DNA of 32,482 nucleotides from a virus. The translations under genes were made by a program, and so were the position numbers. This document shows positions 3,942-17,226 of the stretch, piece after piece (the stretch's first letter is position 1; every line of letters begins with the position of its first letter). The notes beneath the pieces are model-generated. The model did no database searches, was not told the origin of the DNA, and saw nothing but the letters and a program-made list of their open reading frames with translations. The DNA is taken from IMG/VR virus record IMGVR_UViG_3300042868_000853, positions 1 through 32,482 of that record. One strand, given 5' to 3'.

Positions 3942-4544
3942 ATGGCTAAAAAATTAGAAACAATAGAATTGTTTATTGACGAAAGTCAAGATAAAGACGG
4001 AATAGATGCTTTAAGTTTAGTAAAGTTTCCTGCAATAGAAGAAAACTGGGTTGCATTAAATAACCATAGAATTGAATTTAAATCAGTTGATGATGAGAAA
4101 AGAATTATTATAGGATTAGCTTTAGTTCCAGATAAATTGATTTACAGAAAAAATGGTGATTATGAATATAATATTAAATTTTCAAAAGAAACTGTAAACA
4201 AAGCAGCAAGATTATATTTAAAAAAACTAAATAATAACAATGCTACTTTAGAACACAAAACAGAAGTTGAAGGTGTTTCAGTTGTAGAATCTTGGACAGT
4301 TGACAATCCTAAAATCGATAAAACTGCATTGTATGATTTAAATGCAGTAGAAGGTTCTTGGGCAGTTATTATGAGTATTGACAATGATAAAGTTTGGGAA
4401 GAAATTAAAAACGGAACTTATTTAGGAATAAGTGTAGAAGGATATTTTAGCGACAAATTAGAAATGAGTTTACAAATAGCTAAAGAACAAGAATTAATAG
4501 ATAAAATAAAATCAATAATAACTAATGCTGAAATTAATAAATAA
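3942..4544 (+). CDS. XkdF-like prohead protease / head maturation protein
   Basis: This 200-aa protein resembles the XkdF family, thought to be serine proteases of phage prohead maturation. Visible features are a beta region containing IIIGLALVPDKLIYR (about 55-69), a conserved His (LEH, residue 105), the ESW motif (116-118, Ser117) and the G-x-S-x-E-G signature at 162-167 followed by YF. The His and Ser are plausible catalytic residues by analogy with assemblin-fold proteases; this was not tested. It precedes scaffold-like and capsid genes, the usual position for such a protease. An A/T-rich leader of about 40 bases separates it from the tape measure gene. Confidence 0.75.
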   Translation: MAKKLETIELFIDESQDKDGIDALSLVKFPAIEENWVALNNHRIEFKSVDDEKRIIIGLALVPDKLIYRKNGDYEYNIKFSKETVNKAARLYLKKLNNNNATLEHKTEVEGVSVVESWTVDNPKIDKTALYDLNAVEGSWAVIMSIDNDKVWEEIKNGTYLGISVEGYFSDKLEMSLQIAKEQELIDKIKSIITNAEINK

Positions 4545-4548
4545 AATT

Positions 4549-4734
4549 ATGGGAAATAAAACAAGTTCACCAAAAGGTGGGAACAGAGGTTGCTTATGTA
4601 AAGATGGTAAATACTCTCAAAAATGTTGTAATGGAGAATTACAAGAACAAGGAATAGGCTCTACTTTTAATCAACAAACAAGTACAGTTACAAACACAAA
4701 CATTGTAAGAACTATTACAAGTGTAAGTTCGTAA
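4549..4734 (+). CDS. Tiny SEC-C-like Cys-rich protein
   Basis: I start this at ATG 4549 (61 aa), just after the XkdF stop, rather than the in-frame ATG at 4525 inside that gene. It begins MGNKTSSPKGGNRG, then has CLCKDGKYSQKCC. That string is C-x-C-x8-C-C, the exact spacing of the SEC-C zinc motif found at the C-terminus of SecA (C-x-C-x8-C-[CH]). The rest is Gln/Thr/Ser-rich and probably unstructured. It sits in the head morphogenesis cluster between protease and scaffold-like genes. Similar small proteins occur, to my knowledge, in other Bacteroidota phages as hypotheticals. Zinc binding is inferred; function is unknown. Confidence 0.7.
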   Translation: MGNKTSSPKGGNRGCLCKDGKYSQKCCNGELQEQGIGSTFNQQTSTVTNTNIVRTITSVSS

Positions 4735-4779: not shown

Positions 4780-5139
4780 ATGACAACTGAAAAATTAGTA
4801 AACAAAGCATTGTTTGGAAAAACAGAATTATCTTCTCAAAAAATAGAATTGGCTGCTATTGATGATTTTAAAGAAATATATAATAAAGCTAATAATGAAC
4901 AAGCTAAAATTGCAACAACTTTAGTGGATGATTTAGCAAAAGCTTCTAATGATTTTAAAGGTAATTTAGCAGATTGGCAAAAAGCATCTGTAATAGGTAA
5001 TCAAATAATTTTAAAAGCCAAAGAATTAGGTGTTGAATTACCTGCTCCATTTTTGAATAGTGTTAAAGCATCTGAAATAGAAGTTAAAAATACTCCTTCT
5101 GTGCTTTCAAATATTTCAAAATTATATAGTGTATTTTAA
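4780..5139 (+). CDS. Helical head-region protein of unknown function
   Basis: A 119-aa protein with mostly helical character, rich in Ala, Lys, Asp and Leu, without Cys, Trp-rich motifs or membrane segments. It ends in SNISKLYSVF. Its place between the SEC-C-like protein and the scaffold-like protein suggests a head assembly role, perhaps an accessory scaffold or internal head protein. An A/T-rich leader of about 45 bases precedes it, similar in character to the one upstream of the XkdF-like gene. I recognise no family. Confidence 0.65.
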   Translation: MTTEKLVNKALFGKTELSSQKIELAAIDDFKEIYNKANNEQAKIATTLVDDLAKASNDFKGNLADWQKASVIGNQIILKAKELGVELPAPFLNSVKASEIEVKNTPSVLSNISKLYSVF

Positions 5140-5159: not shown

Positions 5160-5705
5160 ATGAATGTAATTAATGAAATCAAAACTCTTTTGGGTATGGA
5201 AGTTAAACTTGCTCAAATGAAACTTAAAGACGGAGTTACTGTTATAGAAGCAGATGCTTTTGAAATGGATAACAATGTTTTTATTGTAAACGGTGAGGAT
5301 AGAATTCCTGTACCTGTTGGAGAATACGAACTTGAAGACGGAATGATTTTAGTTGTAGCAGTTGAAGGTGTTATTGCTGAAATTAAAGAAGCCATTGTAG
5401 AAGAAGAAGCTCCTGAAGCTGAAGTAGAAGTTGAGGTTGAAGCACAAGCTGAAACAGTAGCTACTCCTAAAAGAATTGTTGAATCAGTTTCTAAAGAAAT
5501 GTTCTTTTCTGAAATTGAAAAACTACGTACTGAAATTGCTGAATTAAAATTAGCAAAAGAAGTAAAAGAAGAATTAAGTTCTGATGTTGTTGTTGAACCA
5601 TTAACACATTCACCAGAAGTTAAATCTGAATTAAGATTAAATAAAATATCAACTAATCGCCAAATGACTACACAAGATATAGTTATGGCAAAACTTTTTA
5701 ATTAA
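5160..5705 (+). CDS. Scaffold-like head assembly protein
   Basis: This 181-aa protein lies just upstream of the capsid region. It has a small beta domain (about 15-75, alternating hydrophobic residues around GEYELEDGMILVV), a very acidic Glu/Ala/Val low-complexity linker (about 76-102), a coiled coil (about 112-140, EIEKLRTEIAELK) and a C-terminal tail (KISTNRQMTTQDIVMAKLFN) that could contact capsid. Acidic, helical, capsid-adjacent proteins of this size commonly act as scaffolds, so I call it scaffold-like. A homing endonuclease separates it from the capsid gene. No direct sequence motif proves the role. Confidence 0.55.
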   Translation: MNVINEIKTLLGMEVKLAQMKLKDGVTVIEADAFEMDNNVFIVNGEDRIPVPVGEYELEDGMILVVAVEGVIAEIKEAIVEEEAPEAEVEVEVEAQAETVATPKRIVESVSKEMFFSEIEKLRTEIAELKLAKEVKEELSSDVVVEPLTHSPEVKSELRLNKISTNRQMTTQDIVMAKLFN

Positions 5706-5717
5706 AAAATAAAAAGA

Positions 5718-6293
5718 ATGCTTCATTTTACGTATCAGACAAAAAATATTATAAATGAAAAGACTTATGTAGGTATTCATTCTACAGAAAATCTTAATGA
5801 TGGATATTTAGGTTCTGGTACGGCTTTACAAAAAGCAATAAAAAAGTATGGTAAAAAAAATTTTACTATGATTCCTTTAGCTTTTTTTGATAGCAGAAAT
5901 GAAGCTTTAGAAGAAGAACATTTTATTGTGGATTTAAAATGGGTTAACGATAAAAATAATTACAATTTATCAGGAGGAGGAACTGCAAATAAAGTCACTT
6001 CTGAAAAAACTAAATTAAAATTATCAAATGCATTAAAAGGTAGAGAAGTTTGGAATACAGGTATTAAAATGAAAGATAGTACTAAATTATCTTTATCTAA
6101 ATCTAAAACTGAATACATAATAGAAAAATATAATAAAAATGGAATTCTTTTAAATTCATTTGATAATCTTTATGAAGCTTATAGTTCTGTAAAAGGAGAT
6201 GGAAAAAGTCTTTGGAGAGCATTAAATGGTAAACGCAAAACTTATTTAGGTTTTGTATGGAAAAAAAATAATAATAATAATAATATAAATTAA
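5718..6293 (+). CDS. GIY-YIG homing endonuclease with NUMOD DNA-binding modules
   Basis: The 191-aa protein opens with a GIY-YIG-type nuclease domain in its GIH variant: TYVGIHSTENLNDGYLGSG at about residues 15-33. A KKYGKKNF stretch and an E-rich helix with EALEEEHFIVD (about 58-70) follow. A NUMOD3-like segment (about 97-117, ALKGREVWNTGIKM) and a NUMOD1-like segment (about 135-180, YNKNGILLNSF ... SLWRALNGKRKTYLGFVWK) follow as DNA-binding modules. The C-terminus is an Asn run encoded by an AAT microsatellite (about 6268-6288). It is free-standing between scaffold-like and capsid genes. It is more AT-rich than its neighbours, as expected of a mobile nuclease gene. Confidence 0.85.
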   Translation: MLHFTYQTKNIINEKTYVGIHSTENLNDGYLGSGTALQKAIKKYGKKNFTMIPLAFFDSRNEALEEEHFIVDLKWVNDKNNYNLSGGGTANKVTSEKTKLKLSNALKGREVWNTGIKMKDSTKLSLSKSKTEYIIEKYNKNGILLNSFDNLYEAYSSVKGDGKSLWRALNGKRKTYLGFVWKKNNNNNNIN

Positions 6294-6306: not shown

Positions 6307-7251
6307 ATGGCAACAACTACGTCAATAACAACAACTTATGCAGGAGAATTTGCAGGAAAATATATCTCTGCTGCATTATTATCAGGTTCAACTATCGCTA
6401 ATGGTGGTATTGAAGTTAAACCAAACATCGCTTTTAAAGAAGTAATCAAACGAATTGCTACAGATGCGATTGTAAAAAATGCAACTTGTGATTTTGATGC
6501 TACATCTACTGTAACATTGACTGAAAGAATTATTACTCCAGAAGAATTTCAAGTAAATTTACAACTTTGTAAAAAAGATTTTAGAAGTGATTGGGAAGCG
6601 ATTCAAATGGGATATTCTGCATTTGACACTTTGCCTCCATCATTTGCTGATTTCTTATTGTCTCACGTTGTAGCTAAAGTTGCTGAAAAAACAGAACAAA
6701 ACATCTGGAAAGGTGTTACTGCTAACGCTGGAGAATTTGACGGATTCTTAACTCTTGCTGCTGCTGACGCTACTGTTATTGATGTAGCTGGTGCTTCAGG
6801 TGGTGTAACTGCTGGAAATGTAGTCGCTGAGCTCGGAAAGCTTGTAGATTCCATCCCGAGTACACTCTATTTAAAAGAAGATTTGTATCTATATGTATCT
6901 CAATCGGTAGCACGTGACTACGTGAGAAGTCTTGGTGGATTTGGTGCATCAGGTTTAGGTGCTAATGGTACAAACGCACAAGGTACACAATGGTATAACA
7001 ATGGTTCACTTTCTTTTGATGGTGTTAAAATCTTTGTTTGTAACGGAATGACAAATGATTATATGATGGCTGCTCAAAAATCTAACTTATACTTTGGAAC
7101 AGGTTTATTAAATGACTTGACAAATGAAGTTCAGGTGATTGATTTAGCTGATATTGACGGAAGTCAAAATGTAAGAGTAGTAATGAGATTTACTGCTGCG
7201 GTTCAATATGGTGTAGGTGCTGAAATTGTACTTTACACACCAACTGCATAA
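6307..7251 (+). CDS. Major capsid protein
   Basis: The 314-aa protein is the best candidate for the major capsid protein. It follows protease and scaffold-like genes, has a typical length for a processed or unprocessed HK97-fold subunit, and has few charged low-complexity stretches. It begins MATTTSITTTYAGEFAGKYI and has a middle helix (SFADFLLSHVVAKVAEKTEQ, about 111-130) followed by NIWKG. It has Gly/Ala-rich loops (about 210-230) and a beta-rich C-terminus ending YGVGAEIVLYTPTA. A strong intrinsic terminator follows 23 bases after the stop. About 6820-6930 is noticeably GC-richer than the surrounding sequence. The HK97 fold is inferred from context. Confidence 0.75.
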   Translation: MATTTSITTTYAGEFAGKYISAALLSGSTIANGGIEVKPNIAFKEVIKRIATDAIVKNATCDFDATSTVTLTERIITPEEFQVNLQLCKKDFRSDWEAIQMGYSAFDTLPPSFADFLLSHVVAKVAEKTEQNIWKGVTANAGEFDGFLTLAAADATVIDVAGASGGVTAGNVVAELGKLVDSIPSTLYLKEDLYLYVSQSVARDYVRSLGGFGASGLGANGTNAQGTQWYNNGSLSFDGVKIFVCNGMTNDYMMAAQKSNLYFGTGLLNDLTNEVQVIDLADIDGSQNVRVVMRFTAAVQYGVGAEIVLYTPTA

Positions 7252-7979: not shown

Positions 7980-8309
7980 ATGATAATTTTAAAAGAACAA
8001 AATACTGCACAAACATTTAGCTTTATTCCACGTGAATTAAAAGCTACTACTATTGTTTTAAGAAACGAAACAACAGGAAGTGAAACAAATATAGCTGCTG
8101 ATTTTTTCTTATCTGATTATTATTTAACAACGACAACTATTTTTGCATTAAAAGAAAATACGTTTTATAATTTGACTATTAAAAACAATAATGATATAGT
8201 TTACAAGGATAGAGTTTTTTGTACTAATCAAAATACAGATACATACACAGTCAATCAAAATGAATACGTAGCAAACGTTACAAACAACGAATTTAAAATA
8301 TATGAGTAA
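7980..8309 (+). CDS. Small beta-rich virion-region protein
   Basis: A 109-aa protein beginning MIILKEQNTAQTFSFIPREL and overlapping the portal gene start by 8 bases. The sequence alternates polar and hydrophobic residues, with Thr/Asn-rich turns, and is probably an all-beta domain (Ig-like or similar). The overlap suggests co-translation with portal. Similar small beta proteins often accompany head-tail or fibre genes. I do not recognise a defined family. Confidence 0.6.
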   Translation: MIILKEQNTAQTFSFIPRELKATTIVLRNETTGSETNIAADFFLSDYYLTTTTIFALKENTFYNLTIKNNNDIVYKDRVFCTNQNTDTYTVNQNEYVANVTNNEFKIYE

Positions 8310-10089
8310 TATATCAATAGTAAATTTAAGTGCTTATACAAGTCCTGTAATACAAGAAAATAAAAAGAATGATTTTATTGAATATGGAAGTGATAATAAT
8401 TACTTTCAATATTTGATTGATAGGTATCTTTATAGTGCTACAAATGGTGCTATTATAACAGGTGTTGCTAATATGATTTATGGCAAAGGATTAGATGCTT
8501 TAGATTCTAATAAAAAGCCTAATGAATACGCACAAATGAAATCTATTATAAAAGATGCTGATTTAAAGAAAATATCTTTAGAACGCAAACTTTTAGGAAT
8601 GGCTGCAATGCAAGTTGTAATGGAAAAGAAACAAGTAAAACAAGTTTTACACTTTCCAATGCAAACATTAAGAGCAGAAAAATGTAATGATAAAGGAGAG
8701 ATTGAAAATTGGTATTACCATCACGATTGGAAAAATAAAAAACCAACTGAACAAATTAGAAAAATACCTGCTTTTGGATTTGGTAATGGAAATGAAGTTG
8801 AAATATATGTTATTAAACCTTATGTAAGTGGATTTGATTATTATAGTCCTATAGATTATTCTGGTTCTTTACCTTATGCTTTATTAGAAGAAAACATAGC
8901 AGATTATCAAATTAATGATTGTCAAAATGGTTTTAGTGGAACTAAAGTAATCAATTTCAATGCAGGTATTCCTACAGAGGAAATGCGTGATAAAATTAAA
9001 CGTGATGTTCTTTCTAAACTTACAGGTTCAAGAGGTGAAAAAGTAATTGTAGCTTTTAATCAAAATGCTGAATCTAAAACAACTGTAGAAGATTTGCCTT
9101 TAAATGATGCTCCTGCACATTATGAATATTTAAGTAAAGAATGTTTTGAAAAGCTAATTGTAGGACATAGAGTTACTTCTCCAATGTTATTAGGAATTAG
9201 AACAGGTGATGGTGGTTTAGGTAACAATGCAGACGAAATAAAGACTGCTACGCTATTATTTGACAATATAGTAATAAAACCATACCAATTAGAAATAATT
9301 GAAGCATTAGACGTTATTTTAGCTATTAACAATATATCATTAAAGTTATATTTCAAAACAATACAACCTTTAGAATTTATTGATGTATCTGGAATGGATG
9401 CTGAAACAATGGAAGAAGAAACAGGTGTTAAAATGTGTTCGCATAATTTATCAAATGATTCTATTGCAGATTTATTAATTGAAAAAGGAGAAACATTAGG
9501 CGAAGAATGGTTAATAATTGACGAAACAGAAGTTGATTATGATACTGAAGATGAATTAGATTTAGAAATACAAAACATAAATTCTAAAAAAGAAAGTACA
9601 TTATCTAAAATGTGGAATTTTGTAACTACAGGAGTTGCAAGACCAACAAATAAATCAGAACAAGATAAAGTAGTTGATGGTGTAAACTTCATTACACGTT
9701 ATGTTTATAGTGGAAATTTATCAGGTCAAAGAGAATTTTGCAATAAAATGGTAAATGCTGACAAAGTTTATAGAAAAGAAGATATTATTTCTATGGGTGG
9801 TCAAGTTGTAAATGCTGGATTTGGAGTTAAAGGTGCTGATACATATTCTATTTGGTTATATAAAGGTGGAGCAAGATGTGAACATAAATGGTTACGTAGA
9901 ACTTATGCGAATTTAGATGGTGTAAAAATAGACCCAACAAGTCCTAAAGCAAAACCATTAAGCAATGCAATAGCTGAAAAATATGGATATAGAATACGTA
10001 ATGAAAAAGAAGTTTCTATGAAGCCAAGTGATATGCCTACAAAAGGATACACACAAGAGTATTGGAATAAAATGGGATATACAAACTAA
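8302..10089 (+). CDS. Portal protein with C-terminal FC...CxH domain
   Basis: The N-terminal ~400 residues have portal character: an early IYGKGLDAL segment (about 60), a long helix/strand core, and the late segment YEYLSKECFEKLIVGHRVTS with PMLLGIRTGDGGLGNNADE following it (about 273-312). Portals form the dodecameric DNA gate at one capsid vertex and anchor the terminase and tail. The last ~130 residues look like an added domain: FITRYVYSG, REFCNKMV (about 477-484), KVYRKEDI, then GGARCEHKW (522-530). This Cys/His pattern resembles the C-terminal region of MuF/XkdF-type minor head proteins, so the gene may be a portal fused to a minor-head-protein tail. At 595 aa it is longer than most portals, consistent with a fusion. 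Confidence 0.75.
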   Translation: MSNISIVNLSAYTSPVIQENKKNDFIEYGSDNNYFQYLIDRYLYSATNGAIITGVANMIYGKGLDALDSNKKPNEYAQMKSIIKDADLKKISLERKLLGMAAMQVVMEKKQVKQVLHFPMQTLRAEKCNDKGEIENWYYHHDWKNKKPTEQIRKIPAFGFGNGNEVEIYVIKPYVSGFDYYSPIDYSGSLPYALLEENIADYQINDCQNGFSGTKVINFNAGIPTEEMRDKIKRDVLSKLTGSRGEKVIVAFNQNAESKTTVEDLPLNDAPAHYEYLSKECFEKLIVGHRVTSPMLLGIRTGDGGLGNNADEIKTATLLFDNIVIKPYQLEIIEALDVILAINNISLKLYFKTIQPLEFIDVSGMDAETMEEETGVKMCSHNLSNDSIADLLIEKGETLGEEWLIIDETEVDYDTEDELDLEIQNINSKKESTLSKMWNFVTTGVARPTNKSEQDKVVDGVNFITRYVYSGNLSGQREFCNKMVNADKVYRKEDIISMGGQVVNAGFGVKGADTYSIWLYKGGARCEHKWLRRTYANLDGVKIDPTSPKAKPLSNAIAEKYGYRIRNEKEVSMKPSDMPTKGYTQEYWNKMGYTN

Positions 10090-10096
10090 TTAAGAT

Positions 10097-10597
10097 ATGG
10101 CACAAGGACTTTTTATAAGCACAAATGATATAGTTAAATTTACTAATTTGAATGGTAATTTAGACCCTGATATTTATACACAATATATTTATCAAGCACA
10201 ACAATTACACATACAAAATTATTTAGGAACTAAACTATACGACAAAATTAATGATGGTATTGTTGCAGGTAATTTAGCTGCTCCATATACAACGCTTTTA
10301 AGCAAATATATTAAGCCAATGGTAATACATTGGGCAATGGTAGAGTTTTTGCCTTACGCTGCTTATAAAGTATCAAATAAAGGAGTATTCAAACATAATT
10401 CTGAAAACAGTTCTACAGTTGAAAAATCTGAAATAGACTTTTTAATTGAAAAAGAAAGAGATGTTGCACAATCTTATACAAATCGTTTTATTGATTATAT
10501 GAGTTTTAATCAAAATTTATTTCCTGAATATACTGCTAATTCAAATGCTGATGTATTTCCAGACCACAATGCAAACTTTACAGGATGGGTACTATAA
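10097..10597 (+). CDS. Head-tail connector / adaptor-like protein
   Basis: A 166-aa protein directly downstream of portal. It is mainly helical, with an early FISTNDIVKFTNLNGNLD segment, a central IQNYLGTKLYDKIND stretch (about 38-52) and a hydrophobic MVIHWAMVEFLPYAAYK helix (about 75-91). This arrangement resembles gp6-type adaptor proteins that form the ring below the portal. The family assignment rests on position, size and helical layout. Confidence 0.6.
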   Translation: MAQGLFISTNDIVKFTNLNGNLDPDIYTQYIYQAQQLHIQNYLGTKLYDKINDGIVAGNLAAPYTTLLSKYIKPMVIHWAMVEFLPYAAYKVSNKGVFKHNSENSSTVEKSEIDFLIEKERDVAQSYTNRFIDYMSFNQNLFPEYTANSNADVFPDHNANFTGWVL

Positions 10598-16218: not shown

Positions 16219-16836
16219 ATGAAAAAATGTAAAAAATGTAATATAGAAAAACAATTAAATAATTTTTATAAAGAAAAAAGAAATAATGATGGTTTTTCTG
16301 GAACTTGTAAAATTTGTATAAAAAAATATAATAAGGAATATAAAACAAATAATATAGATAAGGTAATTATATCGCAAAAAAAATGGGTTTTAAATAATTT
16401 AGAAAAAATAAAAGAATATAAAAAAGAATATTTTATTATAAATAAAGAAAAAATTTCTAAATTACATAAAGAATATCATTTTAAAAATAAAGATAAATTA
16501 AATAAAATTTATGTAGAAAGAAAAAATAATAATCCTCTTTTAAAATTAAAATGTAATACAAGAAATTTAATTGGAATATCAATTAAAAGACAAGGTTATA
16601 GTAAAAAATCTAAAACTTTTAATATATTAGGATGTTCTTTTGATGAATTTAAAGCACATTTAGAAAAACAATTTACTGAAGGAATGAATTGGGAAAATCA
16701 AGGACAATGGCATATGGACCATATATATCCTGTATCTTTAGCAAAAAATGAAGAAGAACTTATAAAGTTAAATCATTATACTAATTTTCAACCTTTATGG
16801 GCGATAGATAATCTTAAAAAAGGTAATAAAATATAA
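16219..16836 (+). CDS. HNH homing endonuclease
   Basis: I start this at ATG 16219 (205 aa); a TTG at 16213 would add two residues. The N-terminus has a zinc-binding-like pair of Cys knuckles (MKKCKKC ... TCKICI, about 1-35), then an extremely Lys/Asn/Ile-rich spacer (about 40-115). The C-terminal HNH nuclease region has WHMDHIYPVSLAKNEEE (about 166-182), YTNFQPLWAIDNLKKGNK. The DH and N...N/K residues fit an HNH active site coordinating a metal. It is free-standing, adjoins the NinG-like gene with no spacer, and is more AT-rich than neighbours, all consistent with a mobile homing nuclease. Confidence 0.85.
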   Translation: MKKCKKCNIEKQLNNFYKEKRNNDGFSGTCKICIKKYNKEYKTNNIDKVIISQKKWVLNNLEKIKEYKKEYFIINKEKISKLHKEYHFKNKDKLNKIYVERKNNNPLLKLKCNTRNLIGISIKRQGYSKKSKTFNILGCSFDEFKAHLEKQFTEGMNWENQGQWHMDHIYPVSLAKNEEELIKLNHYTNFQPLWAIDNLKKGNKI

Positions 16837-17226
16837 ATGGCTAAAGAAATAAAAAGAAGTATTTTAATTAAAAAACTTGATACTATATTTTCACAATATA
16901 TTAGAAGAAGATATGCTGTAAATAATATATCTGAATGTTTTACTTGTGGAGTCAAAAATGAATATAAGAAGCTACAAGCAGGTCATTTTGCGTCAAGAAG
17001 ACATTATTCAACAAGATGGAATGAATACAATGTTCAAGTTCAATGTTATTCCTGTAATATTTGTAATCAAGGAATGCAGTTTGAATTTGGTAAAAAATTA
17101 TGTTTACAATATGGTGATAACTTTGCAGAAGATTTAATGATAGAATCTAAAAAAATAGTTAAATTTACAGAATCAAATTTGATTGAAATGATTGAATACT
17201 ATAATTCTAAATTAGATTCTTTGTAG
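16837..17226 (+). CDS. ninG: NinG/Rap-like recombination endonuclease
   Basis: The 129-aa protein matches the lambda NinG (Rap) family of structure-specific nucleases acting on branched recombination intermediates. Visible features: LDTIFSQYIRRRYA (about 14-27), ECFTCG (about 34-39), KLQAGHFASRRHYSTRW with NEYNVQVQCYSCNICNQGMQ (about 48-86) and a closing FGKKLCLQYG. The Cys pairs and the AGH His are the zinc and active-site residues expected of this HNH-related fold. It is followed by an intrinsic terminator. The family is about 200 aa in lambda; this is a shorter, core-only version, as in many Bacteroidota phages. Confidence 0.8.
   Translation: MAKEIKRSILIKKLDTIFSQYIRRRYAVNNISECFTCGVKNEYKKLQAGHFASRRHYSTRWNEYNVQVQCYSCNICNQGMQFEFGKKLCLQYGDNFAEDLMIESKKIVKFTESNLIEMIEYYNSKLDSL

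Follow-up and report, generated by a model that had tools for sequence, protein, structure and literature searches.

The window analysed here, meaning the whole stretch of viral DNA studied, comprises the 32,482 nucleotides of IMG/VR record IMGVR_UViG_3300042868_000853 and carries a gene for a 61-aa protein built around a module with four closely spaced cysteines (Cys4). The original prediction described this protein as a stand-alone SEC-C-like zinc motif in a head gene cluster. Rereading the open reading frame and its translation confirmed the coordinates and the arrangement C15-x-C17-x8-C26-C27, and matches to Pfam and PHROGs bore out the location in a head cluster, with a protease gene before the Cys4 gene and a scaffold-like gene after it. 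The gene order is tape-measure-like protein, XkdF-type protease, Cys4 protein, 119-aa ORF, scaffold-like protein, GIY-YIG protein and capsid protein, followed further on by the portal and DUF6712 genes (Table 1). The true start of the Cys4 gene is uncertain, since an alternative in-frame ATG at position 4525 would give a 69-aa form. An in-frame methionine at most 10 residues upstream is present in 100 of 121 occurrences, some of them in loci that share a contig, and absent from 21; a longer N-terminal form is thus common, but not universal.

Table 1. Features of the Cys4 gene and of its neighbours in the window.
Feature	Position	Strand	Evidence or remark
XkdF-type prohead protease (Peptidase_S78_2/XkdF)	3942..4544	+	PF14550, 7.4e-17
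61-aa Cys4 module protein	4549..4734	+	ORF calling; possible longer start at 4525
Conserved module, residues 7-38 (SP.GG.RGCLC.DG.Y...CC.GEL..QGIG)	4567..4662	+	pN/pS 0.20 for residues 1-38
Four cysteine codons (C15, C17, C26, C27) and x8 spacer	4591..4629	+	all four kept by 377/381 distinct relatives
Variable C-terminal tail, residues 39-61	4663..4731	+	pN/pS 0.85; swapped in relatives
119-aa ORF, optional neighbour	4780..5139	+	no Pfam or PHROG match
Scaffold-like protein	5160..5705	+	matches phrog_24921 residues 205-315, 1.3e-9
Probable major capsid protein	6307..7251	+	phrog_11320, 1.5e-46; phrog_1623, virion structural protein, 2.4e-8
Portal protein	8302..10089	+	phrog_33693, 1.1e-101
DUF6712 protein; the alternative module-gene site of relatives follows such a gene	10097..10597	+	PF20459, 8.5e-23

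The pattern CxCx8C[CH] arose in 18 of 200,000 shuffles of the window protein's own residues. Uncorrected pN/pS values from 68 homologous DNA sequences (2278 pairs; mean pS 0.36-0.45, saturation not corrected) were 0.20 for residues 1-38 and 0.85 for residues 39-61, and the gene is under purifying selection. The AlphaFold model of the 61-aa protein is poor (pLDDT 57, pTM 0.26), and its sole Foldseek match at E<=10, a C2H2 zinc finger with an E-value of 9.4, was rejected as meaningless at such a pLDDT.

The scaffold identity of the ORF at 5160-5705 is plausible because phrog_24921 covers first the window protease (residues 10-173) and then this ORF. Between the scaffold and capsid genes, the GIY-YIG endonuclease ORF (5718-6293) matches PF01541 with 25.2 bits (cut-off 22.6) and NUMOD3 slightly under the cut-off; among the relatives' loci compared for gene order, it recurs in L016 only. 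The 119-aa ORF is one of a set of proteins of about 115-155 aa located between the protease and capsid genes, up to three per genome, which were also seen in L486, L500, L514, L522 and L529 and share N-terminal stretches such as KxWxELSxKxxELSxxKVELS. These proteins are reminiscent of the internal head proteins of T4 with their targeting and cleavage tags. Judged by the capsid and portal proteins, the nearest isolates are the Nonlabens phages P12024S and P12024L (35-36% identity), and the window phage therefore likely has a host in the Bacteroidota. The only megablast match of window positions 1-25000 among isolated phages was at 16440-16837, and in Flavobacterium phage vB_FspP_elemoA_10-9C it falls on an HNH endonuclease region (75.2% identity).

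The original prediction also held that the protein lacks an assigned function, and indeed no name for the family was found in Pfam, PHROGs or NCBIfam, nor a description of it in the open-licence PMC literature. A protein search of IMG/VR with the window protein returned 250 relatives, a search with an alignment at least 591, and a degenerate DNA pattern at least 120 matching stretches. Of their matches, these and the other scans for relatives each retained no more than 80 to 120. With a profile run over all fetched loci, the module was recovered from 521 of 580 loci, corresponding to 381 distinct proteins; this fraction is no prevalence, as most of the loci were picked for carrying the gene. 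The loci are not independent genomes, many lying on the same contig as another (for example L001 and L083), and the scan began ORFs at ATG and misses at least L429, L430 and L441. It found no second module copy in any of the 521 module loci.

A less biased set consists of 148 loci picked by the capsid protein, among the matches listed. The module was present in 101 of these, always upstream of the capsid gene; 13 have a visible protease and no module by the profile, and in the other 34 the protease was not visible and no module was found. Eleven of the 13 were inspected. In L468 and L471 alike, a single ORF matches the protease as well as the scaffold models, seven loci (L486, L492, L500, L514, L522, L529 and L531) have protease and scaffold with neither a fused ORF nor a module, and L536 and L539 contain small ORFs ending in QGIG with profile scores of 12.0 and 8.4 bits, which may be strongly diverged members. 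The P12024S group seems to encode protease and scaffold as one polypeptide (L157 179-1228; L468 1362-2378), the L468 ORF matching both models and P12024S itself probably having the same arrangement. A protein of 135-142 aa before the capsid gene in L471 and L529 was considered as a replacement for the module and ruled out, 74 of its 84 matches being in loci with the module. This protein, 132-142 aa long across its occurrences (ADSGK..L...G..VTLPA...), is encoded at L162 7672-8079, L140 6846-7265, L471 763-1170 and elsewhere, and has only a weak match, to a PHROG of unknown function.

Outside the environmental viral sequences, a tblastn search with five queries against 50,697 phage records gave no relatives in isolated phages; 16 Gordonia tape measure proteins hit by one query (E 6 to 10) were taken as chance. 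Likewise, a search for cellular or prophage copies in 395 genomes from the phylum of a Saprospiraceae MAG, with up to 16 candidates scored per genome, yielded one match, antisense inside a 471-aa ORF and judged to be chance, and a scan of genome contigs returned the same antisense match alone. The identity of the module core keeps step with that of the capsid protein (medians of 64.5 and 60.5% in 52 loci with portal identity below 50%), with a bias in that many loci were picked by the module gene.

The spacer between CxC and CC is x8 in 160 of 193 distinct cores and x9 in 33, the cysteines themselves being fixed by the search expression in this set; beyond the cysteines, a tyrosine and three glycines are invariant in the x8 cores. 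As the original prediction implied, the cysteine positions are conserved in homologues, with all four in 100 of the 101 module loci of the capsid-picked set. The sole exception, L485 (profile E 2.9e-11), led to a group of five loci that encode four distinct cysteine-free proteins upstream of scaffold and capsid genes. All four cysteines are thus present in 377 of the 381 distinct proteins and none of the four in the remaining 4. This clade retains SRTSPK.GRRATLG.NG.YSR...KGF.INQGIGNLEG, that is, the elements TSP..RR...Y...QGIG. Since the clade has lost all cysteines and kept the rest, metal or disulphide chemistry cannot, judging from these sequences, be indispensable to the module. We infer that the Cys4 site props up the fold and that the working surface is formed by the other conserved residues. 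In two loci of the clade (L608 460-4992 and L610 799-4993), two proteins separate the protease and module genes (296 and 1213 aa, and 265 and 1128 aa, respectively), with nearly no Pfam or PHROG match.

What follows the module differs greatly among the 381 proteins. Assigned with our own regular expressions, the C-terminal classes comprise 164 short tails, 115 proteins with at most 12 residues after QGxG, 39 with a CYTV domain, 33 with QEN repeats, 14 with W-rich tails, 6 with CYTV plus a beta domain, 6 long repeat proteins, 2 LamG-like proteins, 1 other and 1 without QGxG. Sequence comparison thus presents the C-terminal part as exchangeable, alternatives being nothing at all, near-neutral short tails, small Cys-rich domains, tandem beta-sandwich repeats and a PF09206 domain. 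The last of these lies at residues 62-136 of the 313-aa protein of L310 (6.7e-11, above the cut-off), residues 58-312 of which match phrog_10356, a virion structural protein (3.9e-21). In L455, the first two repeat copies were modelled as beta-sandwiches (block pLDDT 79-92), with values below 60 for the remaining copies and the module; the likeness to Ig-, Rib-, PKD- and FN3-like domains is weak (best Z 5.2), and Foldseek gave no match for the repeats at E<=0.001. Repeats of this type are also present in module-less proteins of L235 and L240, between the "ORF168" and "TUBE" genes upstream of the tape measure gene. The CYTV domain gives no independent hint of function, as across the 580 loci every protein with this domain also has the module. 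Of the beta domains in the L198 fusion, the second recurs, among the matches listed, in seven other loci (L397 to L403), where proteins of 258-261 aa carry it together with a different N-terminus and lack the module.

The gene occupies two genomic sites. Of 321 deduplicated contexts, 277 are in the head cluster, 34 follow a DUF6712 gene and 10 could not be assigned, counts that rest on a regular expression missing some true members. Where both sites are visible, the gene is at one of them only (15 and 5 loci by the regular expression), and the profile adds 28 such loci, all with the gene in the head cluster; some contigs belong to more than one of these sets. L352 has adjoining protease and scaffold genes, and its module gene follows DUF6712. 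Downstream genes at this second site were read in five loci, three of which (L311, L321 and L343) have genes read as fibre-like.

We propose that the module is a virion anchor, of an architecture like that of Hoc and pb10, that displays variable C-termini, and give this reading a probability of roughly 0.55. It is based on the contrast between a conserved anchor and a free tail, on the surface-type fusions, on the neighbourhood of structural genes and on the virus-only distribution. An anchor of about 45 residues, with a basic N-terminus followed by SP..RGCLC.D.TY...CC.G.L..QGIG, would fold around the Cys4 site, most likely with zinc as the metal, and dock on the particle so that its C-terminus is left exposed. 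What is exposed would be a short, fast-changing tail in the window phage and, in relatives, beta-sandwich repeats, small Cys-rich domains or a ConA/arabinofuranosidase-type domain. The original prediction drew on a single short form; across the family, the fusions at the C-terminus and the existence of a second genomic site suggest display on the virion, and the module proteins are probably present in virions with the C-terminus facing outward. We count against the anchor that 279 of the 381 proteins, namely those with short tails or nothing after the module, have no recognisable displayed domain, and that the seven capsid-picked loci mentioned above have protease and scaffold but no module. 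The poor AlphaFold model, the weak fold matches of the repeats and the confinement of the CYTV domain to module proteins weigh on the same side. Furthermore, distance co-variation across 112 genomes gave partial values of 0.28 for a 183-aa ORF, 0.26 for the scaffold, -0.11 for the capsid protein and -0.06 for the tape measure protein. Given the value for the capsid protein, docking on the capsid is not favoured, and a link with the scaffold would suit a role in assembly.

That role would have the module bind scaffold or protease within the prohead rather than serve chiefly for display. It is one of two serious rivals to the anchor, though unlikely in our judgement. In its favour, the gene lies between protease and scaffold in most contexts, as the head-cluster counts indicate, and co-variation places the scaffold among the two leading partners. 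It would also fit that L468 and L471, relatives of P12024S, combine a joint protease-scaffold ORF with absence of the module, as P12024S itself probably does. However, the 34 contexts after DUF6712 and the adjoining protease and scaffold genes of L352 argue against it, and fusions to a PF09206 domain and repeat proteins of 522 aa seem ill-suited to the core of a prohead.

Equally improbable to us is that the module adapts a fibre or lectin-like domain to the neck or tail, with the position in the head operon being an operon address only. The fibre-like genes next to the module gene at the second site, the PF09206 fusions at that site (L271 and L310) and the co-variation with the 183-aa ORF point in this direction, as do the very large proteins encoded immediately ahead of the module gene in L608 and L610, which we read as fibre-like and for which Pfam offers one sub-threshold tail-repeat match. 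It is countered by the head-cluster location of 277 of the 321 contexts and by the lack of co-variation with the tape measure protein.

A further part of the original prediction that stood is that a Cys4 motif with SEC-C spacing forms much of the protein, and the window protein does carry the ligand pattern C-x-C-x8-C-[C/H]; membership in SEC-C did not stand. The window protein matched no Pfam family at E<=1, and none of 30 members listed PF02810 at E<=10, in a search whose HMMER filters drop most matches above about E 0.1. An hhalign comparison of the family with SecA-type SEC-C tails, 10 of 30 tails being used, placed the cysteines in register at a probability of 0.5% (E 0.13), and neither Pfam, NCBIfam nor profile A3 run against PDB sequences (0 matches at E<=10) lent any support to membership. 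The analysis likewise yielded no support for the SecB idea of the original prediction. A true SEC-C or SecA-like metal-binding domain engaging host SecB, the ribosome or the translocon is accordingly very improbable, for the shared order and spacing of the four ligands, their alignment in register and the presence of PF02810 in 86 of the 118 genomes searched from the phylum are set against the missing PF02810 matches, the low hhalign probability, the cysteine-free clade and the fusions to surface-type domains. From its sequences, the module looks like an anchor with exchangeable tails rather than a true SEC-C protein, and cysteine spacing alone is no ground for naming such proteins after SEC-C.

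If the virion anchor is real, a small gene that ranks among the most frequent in a large set of environmental phages gains a testable role, as a minimal grafting point for surface change. The cysteine-free clade would then be a natural experiment that tells docking, through TSP, RR, Y and QGIG, apart from metal-supported folding, and the module could be turned into a short tag with which proteins are displayed on particles. A broader hypothesis, which we hold more tentatively, is that uncultured phages, probably those of Bacteroidota, use a very common and unnamed display platform. Its zinc-folded anchor of about 45 residues, present once per genome, would change places between head cluster and fibre region, would be grafted with lectin-like, Ig-like or peptide heads, and would have dispensed with its metal site in one clade.

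Compared with known systems, the window phage shares the gene order around capsid and portal with P12024S and P12024L, but neither the genome of P12024S nor the initial 6 kb of P12024L contained a copy of the module. Like SEC-C (PF02810) and the C-terminal tail of SecA, the module has C-x-C-x8-C-[C/H] behind a basic, Arg-rich stretch; it differs from them in the missing profile match, in the residues between the ligands, in the x9 variants and in the cysteine-free clade. Proteins named for the SEC-C motif are listed for the Vibrio phages Virtus and vB_VneS_J26 (PMC9229204, PMC12038007), and ORF49 of Virtus is given there a pfam02810 match of 2.55e-6 (PMC9229204), which by description sets it apart from the Cys4 family. 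The closer parallels are architectural and carry no claim of homology. In T5 pb10, about 75 conserved N-terminal residues bind the capsid and are followed by a solvent-exposed, less conserved C-terminal domain (PMC5292684), and the module proteins likewise combine a conserved N-terminal with a variable C-terminal part. The anchor of pb10 is alpha-helical, whereas the Cys4 module has about 45 residues and is often followed by just a tail; capsid binding is established for pb10, whereas the module family is known here from its genes. T4 Hoc and Hoc-like fibres, as portrayed in PMC10385173, join a conserved capsid-binding domain to variable domains of Ig-like and, in one case, enzyme type. The module family has the same combination of a conserved anchor and variable appended parts; as to an appended Ig-like domain, the window protein has none, and the beta-structured repeats of L455 come nearest with their weak match. 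The Hoc anchor is usually C-terminal, whereas the module is N-terminal and able to stand alone.
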